Positions 2,981 through 59,331 of a stretch of DNA of 64,000 nucleotides are shown here, one piece after another; within the stretch, counting starts at the first letter, position 1; each line of letters starts with the position of its first letter. The stretch is taken from positions 102,395,992-102,459,991 of the forward strand of contig JARYHS010009186.1 in the NCBI GenBank assembly GCA_031002005.1, written 5' to 3'. Below the pieces are notes generated by a model. That model did not search any database. It was given only the letters and a program-made list of their open reading frames with translations, and was not told the DNA's origin. The position numbers and the translations under genes are program-made. This DNA comes from Vandiemenella viatica. Lineage: Eukaryota > Arthropoda > Insecta > Orthoptera > Morabidae.

Positions 2981-2983
2981 TAA

Positions 2984-3048
2984 AGAGAGGAACCACCCCA
3001 GCATTCGCCTGGAGTGATCCGGGAAGACCATGGAAAACCCAGATCATA
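2984..3048 (-). mobile_element. SINE-A fragment (tRNA-derived family)
   Basis: Reverse complement of the central part of the family best seen at 7616-7862 (CCATGGTTTCCCCAAATCAC, then GGCGAATGCCGGGATG). It lies directly against the Harbinger right end. Confidence 0.75.
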
Positions 3049-3387
3049 CAAGCCGACGGTTCTTTGCAATCTCAAGTATTATTCGATTTACAGTCATTCG
3101 TCATTTCCTTATTTGGTCCATGTCCTAGTGTAAATATCCTCTCACTTCGTATTATCGCAGCTTTCAGTCCTTTCCCAGGTTTCATATCAGTACAGTAGAA
3201 TACTCTTAACTATCGTGTAAAATATTCTTCCTCCGAGTTACATTAGAGGATGATAATAACCTTTTTATTTTCTGTTTTGGCTGTCTTGTTTGTGCAGTTC
3301 TTGATTTTATTTTATTTTTTTCCGTTCCCTTCTCTAATTGTTATAGTATCCAAATAATTATGTACAGTACATACATATCTGATATTC

Positions 3388-3465
3388 ACCTACTGATAGA
3401 TCATCATTTGGATCCCCTACTGCAATGTATTTTGTCTTTCCAAAATTCACTGTGAGTCCGTGTTT
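3388..3465 (-). mobile_element. LINE reverse-transcriptase fragment
   Basis: The minus strand reads, without stops, H-G-L-T-V-N-F-G-K-T-K-Y followed by I-A-V-G-D. This is the conserved stretch following the catalytic YADD box in RTE/BovB-like reverse transcriptases (G-L-x-I-N-x-x-K-T-K-x-M). About 26 codons survive. Confidence 0.55.
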
Positions 3466-4085: not shown

Positions 4086-5029
4086 GATTTTTATCAAGTT
4101 TAATACATAACTGATTATATAATCACTAGCTGATACCCACGACTTTGTACGCGTGGATTAAGAATTTCTTTGCCAGAATTGAATATAGAAAGTTGTTAGT
4201 AGCAAAGGATTGGTCCCAAACAACACCGAGTCAGCATAATATGACCGGAAAGCCACTACTATATAATTCTACCATCGAACCTGTCTCTTGAAGAGAATCA
4301 ATTTCCAATATATTTAAAAACAGAAAAACAAACGAAGGTGAGGGGATGTGTGGGGGGGAGTGGGGGATCTTGACTAAGTACAGCTTTATTTCAGCTTGGT
4401 CTTTTCTTCTTTCTTCAGCATGAGCATCCGATTCTTGGGTTCTAATAACTTTAGCTGCTCGTGGACTGCTAGAGCTACAACTTAGGCCAGTTTACGCCCG
4501 CAAGGCATGTCAAAAAAGAAGGCAAAATAAACTGGGGCCAGAAATATTTAAGCAGACACAAGGTAATAGGACAGAGAAAATCGACATCTATACTAAATAA
4601 TACGTTTTTTCTCTAAAAGAAATTTAGTAACAAATTATACACTAACATAATGCGCGAGAAGTATAGCTTGAGCAAGCGACGTAACATCACAGACTAACAC
4701 GCACATCCGTCTCTCTGTCACCATTCGATAAGTTCTTAATATTTCGTGACTACAACTGTTAATCATACCGAAAAAAAAAAAATATCCTGTGACGTCCCTA
4801 CAGATTTTCTTGTCAAATTCCGTCAATATCGGTATAGACATTTAGTTGTCGAAACGTAACAAAAGACAGAGACTTACTTCTGCATTTATACTATTATTAC
4901 TGCAGATCACACACACACTGACTGCGAATCACCCCTGAGGGATCAATATAACGTAAGAAAGTGTACATCTACAGCATTGTAAGACTACCTACGATTTGCC
5001 TCGGATAGCACCCCTAACTTTGTGATATC

Positions 5030-5530
5030 TACAGTTGAACATTGAATCCGAATAACCGACGGCCAAGGCGTGACTCTTACGATCAAAAACAATTTTTAAA
5101 AATCCTAGCCTCCATGGAGATTTGAACCGGAGACCACGACCCAAGCATTAGTAAACAAGCGCTTTAAACCACTTTTGTTTTTTTAATATATATTTTTTAT
5201 TGTTTCACTTTCATAAAATGTTACAGTAAAATAATACATCTTCTAGTCATTACAAAATGTAGCGTAAAAAAAAAGAAAGTATTTGAATTTCAATATATAA
5301 TAGTTGGATTACAATCATTTCCTTGAAAAGGTATTATGTTATTCAGATAGTTGGCATAGTTTTCTTTGTAGTATCGATACGACATAGCTCGTTTGTTTTC
5401 TGTTACTAAGTAATACCAGTATTCTTGTAGACTGGCTCTTTCTTTGTTGTGTATTATGTAATGGACATAATTTGCTAAGAGCCAGCATGTTGCGTTGAAC
5501 CACTCAGCTACATGACCGCTTCACGGAAAA
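5030..5530 (-). mobile_element. tRNA-derived SINE split by a LINE tail
   Basis: Joining 5504-5530 to 5030-5172 on the minus strand gives a tRNA-like head. A-box GTAGCTGAGTGGTT matches the consensus well, and B-box GGTTCAAATCTCC lies about 45 bp later, followed by a body. The anticodon-arm region cannot be folded confidently by eye. The head was interrupted at the A-box side by the insertion at 5173-5491. Confidence 0.5.
5173..5491 (-). mobile_element. 5'-truncated LINE 3' end with target duplication
   Basis: The minus strand encodes L-A-N-Y-V-H-Y-I-I-H-N-K-E-R followed by N-Y-A-N-Y-L-N-N-I-I, then a stop, a short 3'UTR and an A-rich tail. The same protein end occurs at 44452-44772, showing a LINE family. 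It is flanked by CTTTAAACCAC (left) and CGTTGAACCAC (right), a target-site duplication of about 11 bp with small differences. This is a typical target-primed insertion into the SINE head. Confidence 0.7.
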
Positions 5531-5968
5531 ACAGTACGGAGACCTCCATATCTAATGCGTCTGTCTATCGCCATTCAGTAATATTTCGAAATTATAAGAC
5601 AACATGTATTATTTATACAGATTATTTTTCAACCAAATGTAGACAGTATTTTTCTCCTTGTTTCAAAGGATAAGTGTGCAAAAGGTTCATCGAGATTGGA
5701 TGAAAAACTGTGGATCTGTACGAAGAAAAAACAAAAACTAACAAACAAACATACATACATTCATCTTTATATATATAGATATCACATGTTCGATTTTTAT
5801 AGAAAACGATGTGGAAACAGGAGCAACTGAGAATTTCTGATGGCCCTAGTTATCAGATTTAAAACCGGAGAAGGAGTTAAACTGGTAACATCTGAGACAG
5901 GAAATACTATGTCTTATTGCAGGTCAAGACATTAGTCAGCGGCAGTTTAGGTGAGCGTGCTATGGCAT

Positions 5969-6140: not shown

Positions 6141-6330
6141 TCTTTTTTTTTTTGGCCTCGTTGACGTCGAAGTAATTAGAGGCGGTAAAAGATTGGGGGC
6201 AAGGAACGGGAAGTAATTTGACCATGGCCTTTTTGAAGGAAGTATCCCGGCATTCGCCTAAAGTGATTTTGGGAATCTATGGATTATTAGAACCGGCGTC
6301 CTCCCGAATGCGAGACCACCCACCACTCTC
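6141..6330 (-). mobile_element. SINE-A copy, minus strand
   Basis: Poly(T) at 6142-6153, then GGCCTCGTTGACGTCGA, GGGGGCAAGGAACGGGAAG, CCATGGCC and CCCGGCATTCGCC, ending in ATGCGAGACCA near the 5' side. It covers most of the element apart from part of the tRNA-like head. Confidence 0.75.
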
Positions 6331-6454
6331 TAGATTCCGTTTTGTGTTACTTCCAATCGTTCCATGCACGTAAAAACGAAGAATTACATCCGTCAATTCG
6401 AATCTGTTGCATCAGCGATAAGGGAGCGGCAATAAACTACGTTGGTCCGTCTAG

Positions 6455-6653
6455 GGGGTGGGAGGGGTTGACTGGAAAGTTACGCTGGGCTACGTGGGAG
6501 GGAGGGGGGGGGGGGTTCCAAGCTAAGCCAAGTAGCTTATTATTCATATATTTGTCACAATTAAAATAAGGTACAGAACACACAACAGCATGTGACTGGG
6601 AAAAGCCACGTCGGGCAACGTGGGAGGGATGGAGGGGGGGGGGGGGGGGGGGG
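6455..6653 (+). repeat. Duplicated G-rich block with long poly-G runs
   Basis: Two related blocks, GACTGGAAAG...CTACGTGGGAGGGA and GACTGGGAAAAG...CAACGTGGGAGGGA, each end in a G run: 12 G at 6504-6515 and 20 G at 6634-6653. The period is about 134 bp. The runs could form G-quadruplexes or mark a degenerate element end. Confidence 0.7.
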
Positions 6654-7606
6654 CTCTAGAGGTGGCCAAATGGAGTATGTGGTTTATGGGCGCTTGTTTG
6701 GAGAACAGAATGATTCGTTCAGATCATAGCAGAATTTCCTCAGGTCTTAAAAACCGTCTTTAACCTTTGGATAAGATAAATATATCTACTATAGGTCTTT
6801 TCGCAAAGTGCGTCAACTTTTAAATAAGTTCAAACCCGCGATCCATTATGAAAGCAGTTTACAATATACCCATGAACTGCATGACCAAGTATATATTTTA
6901 TATCCGCTTTCATTCCAGCCAAATCCAGCACAACAAGCTGGACAACCTACTATTTGAGAAATTCGTAAGAATGAGAGAATTGGCTCTGTCGAGAGGTGGG
7001 ATTATCACATGCTGCAGGCATAGTGAGTGGATAAAATGACACATTAATAGATATCGAAGCGGTTGGAGCGAAAGAGAAACCGTGGAAAACTGGGAGGATA
7101 GATGTGAAAAATATTAAAACCTCCGGACTAGACTAGAGAAAGAAAAAACTGTATACAGTCACATAGATTGAGGTATTTTCTTGATTCGTAAGTACATAAC
7201 TTTTTTTAAGTCACGTCGTTCATTTTAATTTTGGTTCAGCTAGTAACGACCCTACATCAGTTCGTATGTATGCTTTTCTTATTTCTCAGCTCCACATTGT
7301 CTTCAAAATTTTACGTTACATCTATGCTTCCAGTAATAATACTTTGGGGACACGGCTGTACATTTAGTACATTTTGATAGTTATTGTGAAAAGTTCTAGT
7401 CAACTACCTAACCATGCTCATTTAATTGCACTTATTTTATGCTGTAACCTACCAATTTATGCCATGTCCATCACTGCTAACCTTTTCACTTCCGATATAG
7501 CTCAGTCATTACTTCTGCCCGAATGCTTTTCAAATCTTTTTTCTTCATGTTTCACGTTGAACAACCATAGATACTGGCTGGTTTAAGTTCCAAAAGAAAA
7601 ATCATT
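6654..7606. other. Unassigned stretch
   Basis: No motif, repeat or splice-supported exon recognised. Open frames (for example 6848-7039 and 7374-7586) look like chance. Confidence 0.3.
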
Positions 7607-7615
7607 TGCTCTTTA

Positions 7616-7862
7616 ACCGAGCGAAGTGGGTGAGCGGTTTACGTTCTGGCTTCTCATTCGGGATGACGCTGGTTCGAATCCCCGTCCACGCATCCAGATT
7701 TCGGTTTTCCATGGTTTCCCCAAATCACTCCAGGCGAATGCCGGGATGCTTCCTTCAAAAGGCCATGGCTGATTTCCTTCCCGTTCCTTGCCCCAGTCCC
7801 ATCCCGCTTCTAATAACCTCGCCATCGACAAGGCGTAAAACCATAGGTAAAAAAAAAAAAAA
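7616..7862 (+). mobile_element. SINE-A, near full length (reference copy)
   Basis: Begins ACCGAGCGAAGTGGGTGAGCG, which resembles a pol III A-box, followed by a perfect B-box GGTTCGAATCC. The body contains CCATGGTTTCCCC, GGCGAATGCCGGG and CATCGACAAGGCG, and ends in an A13 tract. It is flanked by TGCTCTTTA (7607-7615) and TGCGCTTTA (7863-7871), a 9-bp target duplication with one mismatch. At least eleven more copies or fragments lie in the window. Open frames over this element are shadows. Confidence 0.9.
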
Positions 7863-25379: not shown

Positions 25380-25650
25380 CCTACCAATTCTAACTTTACA
25401 GTTAAGATAATTCAATAATGTATTTACGTGAGTAAAACGAATGTAAACTTGTTAACAGTTATAATCACTTATTTTTTATCAATATTCCTTCTAAGATTTA
25501 AATAGTATAGTTATTAATCACGTAATTCTTTTTGTACATTGAGATCAACATTTCTTCTTGTTTCTCTAATCATTTTCAAATTTTAACTATAACTCTGTCC
25601 ACTCCATGTTACAAAACGCTGTGATAAACTCATTCCTCCATGATGATAAC
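25380..25650. other. Unassigned stretch between SINE and hAT-like element
   Basis: AT-rich; nothing recognised. Confidence 0.3.
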
Positions 25651-32833: not shown

Positions 32834-33625
32834 GATGTTTCTTTATACAATTTCGAGTCTCGAAACAGTCAATAACCAATTTTCAATCATCTACTAGAAC
32901 ATTTTTGTAGCAATAATATTTAATACATAAACAGCTGAGATAACAGCAACAAGGAACTAGCTATCTACACCAAACTAGCAACAGTTTCAAATCCTTCCTC
33001 CATGTTTCAAACACGACCATGTTTACCAATGTTCATAAACTTCTTTACATCTTTACAGCTACTTCTGGAAACAGTCAACTTCAAGGAACTTTTGTTTCTG
33101 TTGACATAAACATTGAAAACATTGAGTAACATGACGGAACAAGATTTTTTTTAAAAAAAATTATTATTATTAATTTCAATTGAAATGGAGCGAACACTCC
33201 GGTGGCAAGTCCCCAATCATCCTTTTATCCCTTTGTATATACTTAATTTTTTTAATTTTCTGTTATAATTGGAATTCCTCCCCATTTACCATTCTGATTT
33301 ACAAAATTTAATTTTAAATTCCTTAAGCTTTTTTGGAAAATTATTCATCACTACTCTTGGTAATTTGTTCCAATCCCTGACACCTTTACCTGCCAAAGAA
33401 AAATTTTCCACTCCCTTATGGATAAAATCGAGTGCCAGCTTGTGGTCATAGTCGCCTTTCCCCTTCCATGCACCATTCCTAATTCATTGACCAATATCCC
33501 TCCAAGGTCCATCACCAACATATGCCGTGTACATTCCGAGCACTCTCTTCACCCTGCTCTTTCCTCCAGTGAGTCCCAATCCAGCTCCTTTATCATATCA
33601 TTTACTGACTGGGTCAAGCGATAAA

Positions 33626-51600: not shown

Positions 51601-54600
51601 TATGCAAATATTTTAATATGTTATTCTACAAGTAAAACTAAAGAAAAACGTTTATATAAACATAGGTCCGCAAATGTTTAGTTACGGAGTTACGGCTAAT
51701 AAAATATTTGCCTCAAATTTAGCAACCTCGCTAATATGAAGCCATCGCAAAACTGTAAGAGGTTACAGTAATGCATGATTTCCATTTATTTAGTTGTTAT
51801 TGATCTGGAGATTGTAATACAACAAGTCCCAGACGTGTATCTGCAGTAGTTTTCCAGAAATTCCAGAGATTATACAAATAAATTTGTTTACTTTCCATTA
51901 AGAATGTAGCCTGTTGAAAACTTTGTGCAATTGTCTGGAATTTAAAAAAAAAAAATGAGTCAAATAGTTAATAGATTACAAATTTTCCCAAATTTTTTTT
52001 TTTTTTTTGCTTCTCTGGCATAACGCAAAACAAAGATAAAACAAATTCACAGCATATTCAGCAAAATAACTTTCGTCCCTCTTACAGCAGCATACTACAA
52101 GGAAACCGCAACGCATCACCTTACGACACAAACATACCACACAACGAACACAATACCGAGCAAGGTACCGCATGGACCACATTAATTCATGAACTAATCT
52201 CTGCATTAATCTCTGCTTTTTTCTCCATGATAAAGGAGATTATTATGTCGTCAGTAGCCAGCTTCCTCCAAAATTGCAAATAATACTGCCAATGTCTCTA
52301 AATTAACAGTCCTAAACTGTGGAATGCAAATGGTGTACGTAATAAAAAATCTTCACTTTCAGAATTTATGAGCCGCCACAATGTTGATATTGCTTGTATA
52401 ACCGAGACACATCTTACCTCTAACGATACTTTCAAAATCATTGGATATAAAATATACAGAACAGACCCTGATGCGCCTATAGCCTCCGGCGGTGTAACTA
52501 TACTGATTAAAAACCACATCATCAGTCATTACTCGATTTATATGCCCACCAATGATCTCGAAACTGCTGGAATTCGAATACAAAATAAAACTAACTCTGA
52601 AATAACTATCATTGCTGCTTATAAACAACCAAATCGGAGGCTTACAACTCGTACCAATATTTGATCATAACCAGTCTATCATATTAATGGGGGACCTCAA
52701 CAGTAAGCACTTAGCTTGGGGATGTCGAACAACACCAAACAGAAGGAAACCGCTAGACGCTGCAGGTAACATTGGTCTGCATATGGTCGCACCACATGGG
52801 GCCGACTTACTTTTCTAATAATAGAAATGGTGTGCCTGACATACTTGATATTGCCCCAGCAAAAAACACAACATTATCAATATATATGGAAGCAATTCCT
52901 GAGCTAGATTCAGATCACCTCCCGGTTTTAGCAAAATTTGGTACAAGTCCCGAAACAATAGAACAAACACCAAAGATACTACCTGGGCAGGTAAATTGGA
53001 ATTTATTTGAACTTAATCTGAATCAGATACTATTACCATTCTCTAGGCAAGACACTAAAGGCAGCATTGATGAAGGTGTACAACATCTAACAGCTGTAAT
53101 TCACCAGGCGATAGAACTATCAACCAAGATGCCTCAAACAAGAACGTTTAAGTCATTCGATGAAAGAATACCGCAATGAATCATTGACTACAAAAATCAA
53201 ACCCGCAGACAGTGGCAAAGGAGCGACTCCCGCACCAAAGCAGAATCCTAAACCAATTAATTAGACAGGTCAAACTAGAACTCGGCTCATTACGTTACGA
53301 AACATATCAAAATTATCTATCGGAATTAGAACCTGGTGACGGAAAACTACGAAACGAATTCTCAGGGAACCCACTATCTTACCGCCCATAAAATGGAGCG
53401 ACAAATACATATCTTGTGATTCAGAGAAGTGCGAAATTTTATCAGATCATTTTGAAAATGTCTTTAAACTGAATCCTATAGATCAAGACTTCAACAAAAC
53501 AGTCAAAGATTCCAATCGGCATATGACCATTGGAGCGGAGAAATATGTCAAATTCACTACCCCAAGAGAACTGCGACAAATAATTAAAAGTTTGCCCGTA
53601 AGAAAATCGCCAAGTCATGATAATATACCCAACATAGCGCTGAAGTCATTACCCCCTAAGGCAGTAAGTTATCTCGCAGCACTTTTTAATAGCATTCTCT
53701 GTACCGGATACTTTCCAATAGAGTGGAAACATGCTAATATCATAGTTTTCAATAAACCTAATAAACCAGTTAGCCTACCCTCTAGCTATAGACCTATAAG
53801 CTGACTCCCAATCTTATCAAAATTACTGGAAAAGTTAATAAGAACGGGGCTAACTTCCTTCCTTGATGCTTCAGGAACCATACCACCACATCAGTTTGGA
53901 TTTCGCCCGATGCACTCAACCTCACACCAAATACTACGCCTGGTTGAAGACATCACACGGGGCTTTGAACTTAAAAATCACACCCTGGCTGCTTTTCTCG
54001 ATGTTGCCCAGGCATTTGACAAAGTATGGCACACTTGACTCTTATATAAACTCAAAAATACGTGTATGCCTCTATATTTGTAAAAAAAATCTTAGAAAGC
54101 TTCCTACAGAACCGAAACTTCAGTGTATGAGTGGGCACAAAAATATCGAAAGCATGACCAGTAACAAAAGGAGTCCCACAAGGATAATTTTTAGGGCCCA
54201 CCCTATTAAACATATACACGTCGGACATTCCAACTTTCAGAAATACCTCGAATGCAATATATGCTGATGATACAGTATTATACACTTCACACAACGACAT
54301 CAACAACGCACGCAATTACCTACAGGATGCAATTGCGCAACTAACCGAATTGTTAAATCATTGGCGAATATCTCTAAACCTCGGAAAATGTCAAGTCAAA
54401 ATTTTTACACTGAGACGCCCAGTAAACCCGCCGGAGATAAACATCATGGGAAATAACATTGCATGGAATCCACTTGACCAATCAAGCACGTACCTCGGTG
54501 TCGATCTTGACAGGCGGTTAACGTGGAACACACACATTAATAATAAAATAAACCAAGCCTATGCCATATTGTACAAACTATACCCAGTATTAAATAGAAA

Positions 54601-55127
54601 ATCATTATTAAAAACAGAATGCTGCCTATTAATTTATAAAATGATATTACGACCGCTCATAACATACGCATGTCCAATATGGGGATGTGCTAGTCGTAGC
54701 AAGATACAACGAGTGCAAATATTCCAAAATAAAGTTCTTCGATTAGCTGTGAACGCACCATGGTAGGTATGCAACAGTCAGCTACACCGAGAATTAAATA
54801 TTTCTTACGTTAATGAATTCATAAGGCAACAAACTAAAAATTTTATAAAACGAATGAATTCAGTACCTGGTGCGCGGTTTTATGAGCTAGGAAAAAGAAC
54901 GGGTCAAACTAGACTAAAAAAAACGCCTTCCTCAAGACATTTATCTATCGAACAGTGACTGAAGACGAAATGAACCAGTAAACCATGTGTTGTGAAACAA
55001 GATTATCCTCAGCGCTGAAAACTAAAAAACTATCTATATTTCGTGAACAAAAATGTAGTTATCTTAAATCAATTTCATTACGACTGTTTTTACTACTATT
55101 TTCACACTGATAACTGTTCTTGTCACA

Positions 55128-55231: not shown

Positions 55232-55528
55232 TATATATTTAATACTAATAACTGTTCTTATTACTATTTTAATACTGTTGACACTGTTTGCACTATTGTC
55301 ACAAAATATTTACTGTATCACTGTTATGTAGTTATTGAGGGGCCCTAATCATGGAGGAAGGAATTATATGGAGGAGAAGTGACGTTAAATCGGTGAAGCA
55401 AGCACTAAACTCTCCCGCATGGTGGCAGCACCGGCAGCGACCATATGGCGCTTCCCAACAATTAAGGTGTTCACATTGTGGTAGATGCAGTGATTATTTC
55501 ATTTAGTATTGTGTATAAGTGTTTAAAA

Positions 55529-55599
55529 ATGCCAGCTTGTGTTGCGTCCGGTTGCACAAATAGGCCAGACAGGAAAGAACCTGGAATATCATTTCATAA
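55529..55599 (+). CDS. THAP-like first exon of P-like transposon, copy 1
   Basis: ATG, then M-P-A-C-V-A-S-G-C-T-N-R-P-D-R-K and G-I-S-F-H, ending at donor GTAAGT (55600). THAP domains start M-P-x-x-C-x-x-x-x-C with S-F-H-x-F-P about 15 residues later. The second half of the domain (C-x2-H, A-V-P-T-I-F) should be in a following exon, which I do not find, so the protein is truncated or the exon was deleted. Confidence 0.7.
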
Positions 55600-56524
55600 G
55601 TAAGTTGAATTGTAATTATCGTTGTTGAAGTGAGCGGTAGACACCGCAAACTTTGCAGCACGTCTATAAATATTTAGTCATAGCTCTCAATGGGATGACT
55701 TTGTTCTCAAATTTTTCTTGGTGTAGTGTAGAAAATCAGCAAACTTGCTATTTTGCACATAATAGACTAGCATTATTTTTTAACGAGTGTTTAAAATGAG
55801 ATTTAAAGGGACGTGTTTTACTTCGCGATTCAGTGAATTTACTATTAAGATTTCTTTCGTCACGTTGCTGATTATACTGACAATGGATGATGAAATTAAC
55901 TGTTATGTGAGAAGCTGTGAGTTTTATTAATTTTTTAAATAGCTATTTCAGGCCATTGACTTAGGTTATTTTTAAAGCTTCATATAAGACTTGTTTCTGT
56001 TTGTAAATACGTCTATACCTATTTTTACCGATTTTGAAATCTTTCTCATCTATTTATGTCGAAACAGGTTCATGCAGAAATAAAAATGGGCTTCATAAAT
56101 AAAGAAGTTATTGGCCTTTGAACAAAATCAATTTGGGGAATGTGTTTCTAATTTAGTCTCTTTTTTTTGTACAACATTCTCCCCCCCCCCCCCCCCCGTA
56201 TCTAAATCTAACTGAGAGATAATTTTTTTACAATTGTCCTAATAAGTAGGGCTGTGAAATTAGACAACACATCTTGATCAAGAGAATGTTCATTAAGGTG
56301 ACTGAATAAACATTTTATTTCGGGTACCAGCCTACAAAATGTCTAGGTTGCTCATCCCTAGAGTGGGTCCTCTTACTTTTTTTCTGGTCTAGGACACATT
56401 TCAGACTAACCACAAGTGGTAGTAATAAAACTGAAATATCCATTCTGCATGTCAACCATGTAATCATTGTGGCTTTGACAGAATTAATTTTTGGTCCAGC
56501 CTGCATCCAAACCTAAACCCCTCA

Positions 56525-56935
56525 ATTTGGATGTTGTATATCCCCCAAACTGAGCAAGATATCGAAAACATTTATTCCTTATTATCGAGTTTTTTCGTCG
56601 TGTTACATAAGAATCCATCATTAAATTTGACTTTTGCGAAATTTTTCTTCTGCATTTCAACTCAAGACACCTAACTTTTGAGACAGTATATCTCGAGAAC
56701 TAGGTGAAATATCGAAAAATTTTACTCTTTATTTTTTATTTGTCTCGTCTTTTTAAATAAAAATTCATCATAAAATTTGACTTTGAATAATTTTTTCTTC
56801 TGAATTTCAACCAAAACCACTTCACATTTGAGACAGAATATCTCGAAAACTAAGCAGGATATAAAAAAATTTTATTCTTCATTTTTTATTTGTCTCATCG
56901 AGTTACATAATAATCCATCACCAGATTGCGGCGTC
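56525..56935 (+). repeat. About 150-bp tandem repeats, nearly three units, inside the P-like element
   Basis: Landmarks TATATC(C/T)C..AACT and ATATCGAAAA recur at about 56536, 56686 and 56837 (periods 150 and 151). Each unit contains TTATTTGTCTC or a variant, CATCA..AAATTTGACTTT and TTCTTCTG.ATTTCAAC. The same array is present inverted in copy 2 (about 57500-57915). Confidence 0.8.
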
Positions 56936-57231
56936 ACGTTTATCCTAGAGTCCCCTTGAGGTGTTTGCACATATTCCCCGTGTTTGTTGGGAAGCGGTCA
57001 AGCCCCCACCACTCCGGCCATGCCCCCCCACTCCTCCGCCGGCCTGCTTCACTCCCATGCGTGGTAAAGGTCTCTTGCGTCGTCTCCATATTATTCCTTC
57101 CTCCATGGCCCTAATGTGCTGACCTCAACCATGCCTATAAGAATGCTGTGATTTGTAAAAGACAACTTTATCCTGGTAAGCTAAATTTGCTGATCGGATG
57201 ATATACATATAACAAAAAAGAATGAGATGAA

Positions 57232-57330
57232 TATCGTTGATTATTATTATTATTATTTTAATTGCTATGGAGCACAGGCTCCGGTGGCAATTTCCCTACA
57301 CACCCATCTTCCCCCTAACCTGCACCCACC
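57232..57330 (-). mobile_element. CR1-like LINE 3' terminus, target of P-like copy 2
   Basis: (ATT)n, then TTTAATTGCTATGGAGCACA, CTCCGGTGGCAATTTCCC and CCTAACCTGCACCCACC. A few more bases continue after the transposon at 59094 (CACCCACCTA). It is a very short 3' end insertion immediately after the Jockey LINE. Confidence 0.8.
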
Positions 57331-59093
57331 CATGGAGGAAGGAATAATATGGAGACGACGCAAGAGACCTTTACCACGCATGGGAGTGAAGCAGGCCGGC
57401 GGAGGAGTGGGGGGGCATGGCCGGAGTGGTGGGGGCTTGACCGCTTCCCAACAAACACGGGGAATATGTACAAACACCTCAAGGGGACTCTAGGATAAAC
57501 GTGACGCCGCAATCTGGTGATGGATTATTATGTAACTCGATGAGACAAATAAAAAATGAAGAATAAATTTTTTTGATATCCTGCTTAGTTTTCGAGATAT
57601 TCTGTCTCAAATGTGAAATGGTTTTGGTTGAAATTCAGAAGAAAAAAATTATTCAAAGTCAAATTTTATGATGAATTTTTATTTAAAAAGACGAGACAAA
57701 TAAAAAATAAAGAGTAAAATTTTTCGATATTTCACCTAGTTCTCGAGATATACTGTCTCAAAAGTGAGGTGTCTTGAGTTGAAATGCAGAAGAAAAATTT
57801 CGTAAAAGTCAAATTTAATGATGGATTCTTATGTAACACGACGAAAAAACTCGATAATAAGGAATAAATGTTTTCGATATCTTGCTTAGTTTGGGGGATA
57901 TACAACATCCAAATTGAGGGGTTTAGGTTTGGATGCAGGCTGGACCAAAAATTAATTCTGTCAAAGCCACAATGATTACATCGTTGACATGCAGAATGGA
58001 TATTTCAGTTTTATTACTACCACTTGTGGTTAGTCTGAAATGTGTCCTAGACCAGAAAAAAAGTAAGAGGACCCGCTCTAGGGATGAGCAACCCAGACAT
58101 TTTGTAGGCTGGTACCAGAAATAAAATGTTTATTCAGTCACCTTAATGAACATTCTCTTGATCAAGATGTGTTGTCTAATTTCACAGCCCTACTTATTAG
58201 GACAATTGTAAAAAAATTATCTCTCAGATTTAGATACCGGGGGGGGGGGGGGGGAGGGAGAATGTTGTACAAAAAAAAGAGACTAAATTAGAAACACATT
58301 CCCCAAATTGATTTTGTTCAAAGGCCAATAACTTCTTTATTTATGAAGCCCATTTTTATTTCTGCATGAACCTGTTTCGACATAAATAGATGAGAAAGAT
58401 TTCAAAATCGGTAAAAATAGGTATAGACGTATTTACAAACAGAAACAAGTCTTATATGAAGCTTCAAAAATAACCTAAGTCAATGGCCTGAAATAGCTAT
58501 TTAAAATATTAATAAAACTCACAGCTTCTCTCTCACATAACAGTTAATTTCATCATCCATTGTCAGTATAATCAGCAACGTGACGAAAGAAATCGTAATA
58601 GTAAATTCACTGAATCGCGAAGTAAAACACGCCCCTTTAAATCTCATTTTAAACACTCGTTAAAAAATAATGCTAGTCTATTATGTGCAAAATAGCAAGT
58701 TTGCTGATTTTCTACACTACACCAAGAAAAATTTGAGAACAAAGTCATCCCATTGAGAGCTATGACTAAATATTTATAGACGTGCTGCAAAGTTTGCGGT
58801 GTCTACCGCTCACTTCAACAACGATAATTACAATTCAACTTACTTATGAAATGATATTCCAGGTTCTTTCCTGTCTGGTCTATTTGTGCAACCGTACGCA
58901 ACACAAGCTGGCATTTTTAAACACTTATACACAATACTAAATGAAATAATCACTGCATCTACCACAATGTGAACACCTTAATTGTTGGGAAGCGCCATAT
59001 GGTCGCTGCCGGTGCTGCCACCATGTGGGAGAGTTTAGTGCTTGCTTCACCGATTTAACGTCACTTCTCCTCCATTTAATTCCTTCCTCCATG
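57331..59093 (-). mobile_element. P-element-like transposon, copy 2 (1763 bp), inverted
   Basis: Near-identical reverse complement of 55350-57107: same TIRs, subterminal inverted repeats, tandem repeats, poly-G run (58241-58256) and THAP exon. It has its own exact 8-bp duplication CACCCACC (57323-57330, 59094-59101), so it was inserted independently rather than arising by local inversion. Confidence 0.85.
58844..58914 (-). CDS. THAP-like first exon of P-like transposon, copy 2
   Basis: Same 71-nt exon as in copy 1, with M-P-A-C-V-A-Y-G-C-T-N-R (Ser to Tyr change) and the same GTAAGT donor at 58838-58843 read on the minus strand. Confidence 0.68.
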
Positions 59094-59331
59094 CACCCAC
59101 CTAGCAAAGATTGTAGCAAAGAGATTATATTAGTAGCATTTTGTCTCTGATTAGTTGGATGATATGACGACATAGGAAGGTATTGTCTCTGTAGTCTGTA
59201 CTCTGTAGGAACTTTCTGCTTGTCTGCTGCTTGCTGGTAAAGCGAAAGCTGAATTTTTTTGCTGTATGTGGCTATCTTCGTTGAGGAAGATTGTGTTTGA
59301 TGCTGTGTGTTATAAGTGATCTACGTGCAGT

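Follow-up and report, generated by a model that had tools for sequence, protein, structure and literature searches.

A young family of short P elements and its full-length THAP-encoding relative in the genome of the grasshopper Vandiemenella viatica

The window analysed here is a stretch of 64,000 nucleotides from the grasshopper Vandiemenella viatica (assembly GCA_031002005.1, contig JARYHS010009186.1, positions 102,395,992 to 102,459,991, forward strand). It contains two copies, A and B, of a transposable element of about 1.76 kb. We conclude that A and B are almost certainly non-autonomous members of a young P-superfamily family, which comes from a parent element encoding a P transposase with a THAP domain (THAP-P) and would be mobilised in trans. 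A sequence-only reading of the window had already placed the element in the P superfamily. This assignment now rests on a full-length relative in the same genome, which shares its terminal inverted repeats (TIRs), its subterminal repeats and a target site duplication (TSD) of 8 bp, and which encodes a P transposase.

Copy B is an insertion independent of copy A and lies in the opposite orientation. The two copies and their termini are as follows:

55350-57107, + strand: copy A, non-autonomous P element, 1758 bp (TIRs, exact TSD, subterminal repeats; genomic copies 97-99% identical)
57331-59093, - strand: copy B, same family as copy A, 1763 bp, with its own exact 8-bp TSD
55342-55349, no strand: left TSD of copy A, GCCCTAAT
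57108-57115, no strand: right TSD of copy A, GCCCTAAT
57323-57330, no strand: left TSD of copy B, CACCCACC
59094-59101, no strand: right TSD of copy B, CACCCACC
55350-55373, + strand: left TIR of copy A, 24 bp; equal ends in the 7.7-kb parent
57084-57107, - strand: right TIR of copy A, 24 bp; equal ends in the parent
57331-57354, + strand: TIR at the 3' end of copy B (low coordinate)
59070-59093, - strand: TIR at the 5' end of copy B (high coordinate)
55450-55461, + strand: subterminal inverted repeat of copy A, GCTTCCCAACAA, 100 bp inside the left end; offset equal in the parent
56984-56995, - strand: subterminal inverted repeat of copy A, 112 bp inside the right end; offset equal in the parent
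57443-57454, + strand: subterminal inverted repeat of copy B
58982-58993, - strand: subterminal inverted repeat of copy B

The TSDs are exact in each copy, 8 bp long and different in sequence between the copies. The TIRs are imperfect, with an identity of 23/24 within copy A and 22/24 within copy B. At up to 2 mismatches, CATGGAGGAAGGAA was found 8 times in the window, compared with a mean of 0.36 expected from shuffles, and its 4 exact matches are the element ends of the two copies. The 12-mer GCTTCCCAACAA also has 4 exact matches, located 100 and (inverted) 112 bp inside the ends of both copies; its shuffle expectation is 0.36 on average at up to 1 mismatch. Over 1767 aligned columns, A and B differ by 19 substitutions (10 of them transitions) and 13 gap columns, and the 3' segment of copy A carries three diverged 150-bp tandem units. 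The two inverted, near-identical copies (A on the + strand, B on the - strand), the TIRs, the copy-specific exact TSDs and the 12-bp subterminal repeat had all been described in the sequence-only reading, and each of them is present at exact coordinates.

Searching the host genome (G000, 3,720,483,797 bases) with the P-type RNase H model PF21787 gave 671 first-look places. All 150 places that were scored lay over the cut-off, with open frames of up to 944 amino acids, and the flanks of one group of them match the short element. The parent at C3691 (read in L065 and L069) measures 7713 bp from TIR to TIR, is bordered by an exact 8-bp TSD (GTTCGTGC), and has the same TIRs as the short element as well as the subterminal repeats at offsets 100 and 112. 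Its 944-amino-acid frame matches five Pfam models over their cut-offs: PF21788 (2.3e-48), PF21787 (1.1e-43), PF12017 (9.8e-23), PF21789 (5.5e-18) and PF22824 (1.1e-7). The domain set comprises a helix-turn-helix, the RNase H halves, the GTP-binding insertion and a THAP9-type C-terminus, with the THAP domain on two upstream exons. The frame matches the structure of the Drosophila P transposase (PDB 6p5a) at 5e-30. Its D, D and E positions align with those of the Drosophila enzyme, the conserved parts being the D of DEM, a second D (FDGLSAN/SDLGTGN) and NQDxVExFF. We take the aligned D, D and E to be the catalytic residues. No hAT model was found for the frame at a Pfam E value of up to 0.01, where the matches were five P-type models and three sub-threshold coiled-coil or unknown models. 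The sequence-only reading had proposed a search for full-length P-type relatives sharing these TIRs and had named relatives with a non-P transposase as the evidence that would speak against it. The parent at C3691, with its THAP domain, GTP-binding insertion and RNase H-like core, is such a P-type relative.

The short element has kept the beginning of the THAP-coding region:

55529-55599, + strand: transposase exon 1 remnant of copy A, THAP start, 71 nt, ending AA/GTAAGT; same exon in the parent

The THAP-like sequence of exon 1 is MPACVASGCTNRPDRKEPGISFHK, followed by the donor AA/GTAAGT after 71 coding nucleotides. Exon 1 alone gave no Pfam match at E values of up to 1, and its best match in the PDB was human THAP1 (E = 0.018). 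A chimeric THAP query found, with 1 protein among 13 candidates, only a fish sirtuin with a THAP domain. Taken by itself it is weak; the THAP identity is settled because exon 2 of the full-length relatives completes the domain, and exons 1 and 2 together (as read in L067) match THAP PF05485 at 1.1e-20. The spliced THAP-like first exon of the earlier reading is thereby confirmed. Exon 1 is complete in 25 of the 28 short copies that we aligned; there is a stop in L023, no exon 1 was obtained for L019, and in L030 it is incomplete, probably through the bounds of the stretch taken. The family consensus has Y at the position where copy A has S. The exon kept in the short element probably makes nothing useful and is a leftover.

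An exon 2 with an identity of at least 91% is present in 17 records, which represent 14 places. It is open in seven of these places (L067, which equals L037, and L032, L033, L034, L036, L045 and L046), open until a stop at the last codon in L041, and broken in the other six (C3691, where L065 equals L035, L066, which equals L040, and L038, L039, L042 and L050). Both exon 2 and the 944-amino-acid frame are open in L032. L067, which is covered from the left TIR onward and whose right end lies outside the read, is 99.68% identical to L065 over 5869 columns from the left TIR on, and the left flanks of the two differ. Matches to the parent frame were obtained in 46 rows (40 of 520 first-look places scored), 20 of them at 98-100% and 26 at 73-93%.

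Two further features of the parent copies were observed. Downstream of the gene, L065 carries at 6243-7273 an inverted copy, 71% similar, of the 3' part of the transposase gene (4719-5736), and inverted matches of this kind are also present in L066 and L067. A read-through transcript of the inverted copy in L065 could form a long imperfect hairpin. Inside the transposase frame, L065 has tandem units of about 100 bp at 2981-3396 (33-amino-acid repeats around HSDVLPEPSVSTANNDPNTTGDMPLCIDMSTED), and the copies differ here.

The alignment of copy A to the parent divides the short element into three segments:

55350-56050, + strand: segment from the parent 5' end (element 1-701)
56032-56310, + strand: segment from the parent 3' half (element 683-961), junction 1 near its left edge
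56308-57107, + strand: segment from the parent 3' end (element 959-1758), junction 2 at its left edge

For the family consensus, positions 1-701 match parent 1-702 at 693/702 positions, 683-960 match parent 4649-4920 at 264/278, and 958-1757 match parent 6915-7713 at 791/800. The two junctions show 3-bp matches to both sides, ATC and AAA. According to this alignment, two internal deletions of about 3.96 and 1.99 kb, each with 3-bp microhomology, separate the parent from the short element. The interior of the short element follows the parent in three collinear blocks, which makes it an internal deletion derivative. Such deletions with microhomology are expected when gap repair after P excision is interrupted. 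The longest stop-to-stop frame listed for copy A has 79 amino acids, so that it has no transposase of its own, and a coding partner with shared ends exists in the same genome, in agreement with the non-autonomous status claimed before.

A search of the host genome with the 1758-bp unit gave 1109 first-look places, of which 40 were scored, yielding 46 matches. Thirty loci were taken, and the alignment of 28 copies consists of 26 loci together with copies A and B; L001, which is a window copy, and L007, L013 and L027, which have damaged ends, were left out. The distance of the 28 copies to their consensus is 0.28-1.37%, and the pairwise distances have a median of 1.25%; this low divergence supports the youth that had been ascribed to the family from copies A and B. 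An exact 8-bp TSD flanks 23 of the 28 copies, and the inexact ones agree at 7/8 (L004 and L008), 6/8 (L025), 5/8 (L010) and 3/8 positions (L005). Among the 23 exact TSDs, GT at the left or AC at the right end was found in 17/46 cases compared with 2.5 expected, and the largest value in 2000 control draws was 9. The palindromy of single TSDs was not above background (24/92 pairs vs 23.7).

Several copies lie in or against one another. L004 and L030 are insertions into the TIR of another short copy. In L022 two short copies abut with the 8-mer GAAGCACC between them, and in L015 a central copy abuts the end of another copy on both sides, with GGAGGAAC at each joint. At 1493-1500 and 3281-3288 of L005, the outer flank of the copy is the reverse complement of the flank of an inverted neighbour copy, an arrangement as after an inversion or a hybrid-element event.

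Besides complete copies, we found candidate excision scars. Passages of PMC7776569 place the cut of the P transposase on one strand 17 bp inside the TIR, and in the Drosophila P joints treated in part of PMC2895639 each end can leave up to 17 nt between the 8-bp repeats. Our scan for joined TIR remnants covered the window and 70 loci, with some overlap among them (361,429 bases in total). Four two-ended joints were detected (L007, L015, L021 and L028), compared with 0 for 300 permuted words. In L021 a 25-bp TIR joint lies between two copies of GCCGAAAC, with flanks agreeing at 8/8 positions. The flanks of L028 agree at 6/8. L007 and L015 each have an exact second occurrence of the left 8-mer, but it is displaced to the right by 3 and 5 nt, respectively. 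Outside the elements, the window contains only two sites with up to 1 mismatch to the 13-nt TIR end, both with partial-repeat flanks:

32985-33012, - strand: probable excision scar, 12-13 nt TIR end between a 7-of-8 direct repeat: TTTCAAA / TCCTTCCTCCATG / TTTCAAAC
25621-25650, - strand: possible older scar, 12/13 nt TIR end with imperfect repeats: GTGATAAAC / TCATTCCTCCATG / ATGATAAC; weak alone

The flank scores were 7 for the first (site 33004) and 6 for the second (site 25642); among the control sites from 250 permuted words, 2 of 19 had such flanks. Random positions reach a flank score of at least 6 in 6.6% and of at least 7 in about 1% of cases. In form, the few TIR-remnant scars found resemble the excision joints of Drosophila P.

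The following history best explains these data. As the alignment shows, the founder of the short family arose from a 7.7-kb THAP-P element when two internal deletions took away most of the transposase gene; the two ends with their subterminal repeats remained, as did the 5' sequence and transposase exon 1. Transposase from transposase-bearing copies in the same genome would then bind the shared ends, excise the short copies and reinsert them with 8-bp TSDs; we infer this mobilisation in trans because of the shared ends, the P-type domains and the low divergence. Long-stagger excision inside the TIR, followed by end joining, may have left the TIR-remnant scars, as the few cases found suggest.

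A number of observations weigh against parts of this account. C3691, the sole parent read from end to end, has exon 2 out of frame and may therefore be defective, and the ends of L032 lie outside its read stretch. Because the middle block fits the parent less well (264/278), the direct ancestor may have been an element other than C3691. Several of the transposase rows at 98-100% are on small unplaced contigs and may duplicate one place, so that the true copy number may be lower. As to the scars, L021 is the only one of the four two-ended cases with an abutting exact 8-bp repeat, and the scar at 25621-25650 is weak, its flank score being reached by about 6.6% of random positions. A lenient footprint scan, in which 40 of the 300 permuted words also had sites, was too permissive to be informative, and the stricter tests above took its place.

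8-bp TSDs are not unique to P, and this, together with the missing Pfam match of exon 1 alone, would also suit a hAT, Merlin or other transposon with an 8-bp TSD that had captured a host THAP exon. However, the protein encoded between these same ends in the full-length element has the P-type domain set, and in the full-length relatives the THAP domain is made complete, at its own position, by exon 2. We regard this explanation as refuted by the parent element and give it next to no credence. Just as little can be said for a pack-type element, in which a host THAP gene would have supplied the THAP exon and the internal DNA. Human THAP1 is interrupted at c.71 (its intron 1 variant c.71+9C>A is given in a passage of PMC4049367), and by codon count the splice position of exon 1 equals that of THAP1 intron 1; the splice site is therefore not specific to transposases, as a captured host exon would have it. 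Against capture, the parent matches exon 1, its flanks and the beginning of the intron collinearly along 701 bp (693/702), and we consider capture extremely improbable.

The scars call for a separate judgement. They might be tiny palindromic insertions or chance matches and not products of excision, and three of the four two-ended cases (L028, L007 and L015) are indeed without exact abutting 8-mer repeats. On the other hand, no joints were obtained for the 300 permuted words in the same 361,429 bases, the repeats of L021 agree at 8/8, and the form is that of the Drosophila joints published in PMC2895639, as far as its relevant part goes. We therefore consider an origin other than excision unlikely. 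Returning to a P-type family mobilised in trans, we can only tentatively propose, as somewhat less than an even chance, that one short derivative spread genome-wide by means of few near-identical transposase copies (the 20 rows at 98-100%), and that the scars are a natural archive in which the cut position of a non-dipteran P transposase and the repair of its breaks could be read without experiments. The spread is here judged from 1109 candidate places; 40 of these were scored and proved nearly identical.

The family can be compared with P elements of other animals. In the passages of PMC1562414 on Anopheles gambiae, P-type miniature inverted-repeat transposable elements (P-MITEs) are, like our short family, non-autonomous, with P ends and 8-bp TSDs, and occur beside coding P elements; they measure 205-2450 bp, with 5 to 310 copies per family. 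Their centre is described there as unrelated to any P sequence, whereas the interior of the grasshopper element is collinear with its parent. The P element of Drosophila melanogaster, in the parts of PMC7776569 that treat it, likewise has an 8-bp TSD, TIRs starting with CATG, subterminal inverted repeats (11 bp there), a THAP-containing, GTP-using RNase H transposase and internally deleted copies. It differs in its perfect TIR of 31 bp and its length of 2.9 kb, compared with an imperfect 24-bp TIR and 7.7 kb in the grasshopper, and the grasshopper THAP domain is split after 71 coding nt, unlike that of Drosophila P (same passages). Zebrafish Pdre2/THAP9 also shows TIRs starting with CAT, 12-bp subterminal repeats, 8-bp TSDs and internally deleted copies, but its TIR has 13 bp, the repeat sequences are others and the host is a vertebrate (parts of PMC10983969 and PMC7776569).

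KP is an internally deleted derivative of Drosophila P with a repressor role. The short element retains too little of the THAP domain for a KP-like repressor.

For the Vandiemenella viatica group, DNA/P has been listed among the superfamilies with very recent copies (Kimura two-parameter distance, K2P, 0-1%; part of PMC7754599). Because recent DNA/P amplification in this group is already published there, our surprise is limited; the account, in the part concerned, stays at superfamily level and describes no single family, ends, parent or scars. Our literature search, by title and start of abstract, found no paper on this short family, with most subscription journals outside the literature searched. 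No match to the 22-letter TIR pattern was found in the collections of viral contigs and genome contigs. What the present family offers is a young, abundant short element that can be linked, outside Diptera, to a named class of enzyme and to a full-length parent almost identical with it. With this link, the invasion of a giant insect genome by a P element becomes open to study, together with the phase of internal deletion. Should the scars hold across the whole genome, sequence alone would suffice to measure the stagger length for a P transposase far removed from Drosophila.

Other P-type families are present in the host genome. L061-L064 contain P-transposase frames of 796, 848 and 860 amino acids and one of 415; the THAP exon 1 of L061 is split after the same 71 nt, and that of L064 at the same motif. 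The ends of the short element were not found within the stretches read (7.9 kb each), and a general end search on these four loci gave no convincing ends. Residues 150-944 of the parent frame matched 294 proteins at E values of up to 1e-5 among 7372 candidates. The 120 listed include proteins of aphid, psyllid, firefly, beetle, moth, butterfly, spider and tick, some named DNA transposase THAP9. With these arthropod relatives, P-type transposases outside Diptera are therefore not new.

The host had been taken for a non-dipteran insect from the letters of the window, and this agrees with a COX1-like stretch (C6728, which may be a nuclear copy) that is nearest to Orthoptera among the listed matches naming an organism. 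Its best matches, at 92% identity, are grasshoppers such as Sinopodisma and Calliptamus, and among the 120 matches listed of 7999 scored, those with names that could be placed are orthopterans. COX1 matches in the host genome amount to 114 rows, of which many lie on contigs of chromosome size and some are almost complete in length. Several of the rows belong to a single place, and there are many nuclear copies of mitochondrial DNA.

Elsewhere in the window, a frame at 1184-1798 has matches to DDE_Tnp_4 and Plant_tran just over their cut-offs and represents a Harbinger-like transposase remnant. A series of frames at 52302-54766, the last of which matches RVT_1 at 6.2e-6, under its cut-off, is probably a decayed retrotransposon without long terminal repeats (non-LTR).

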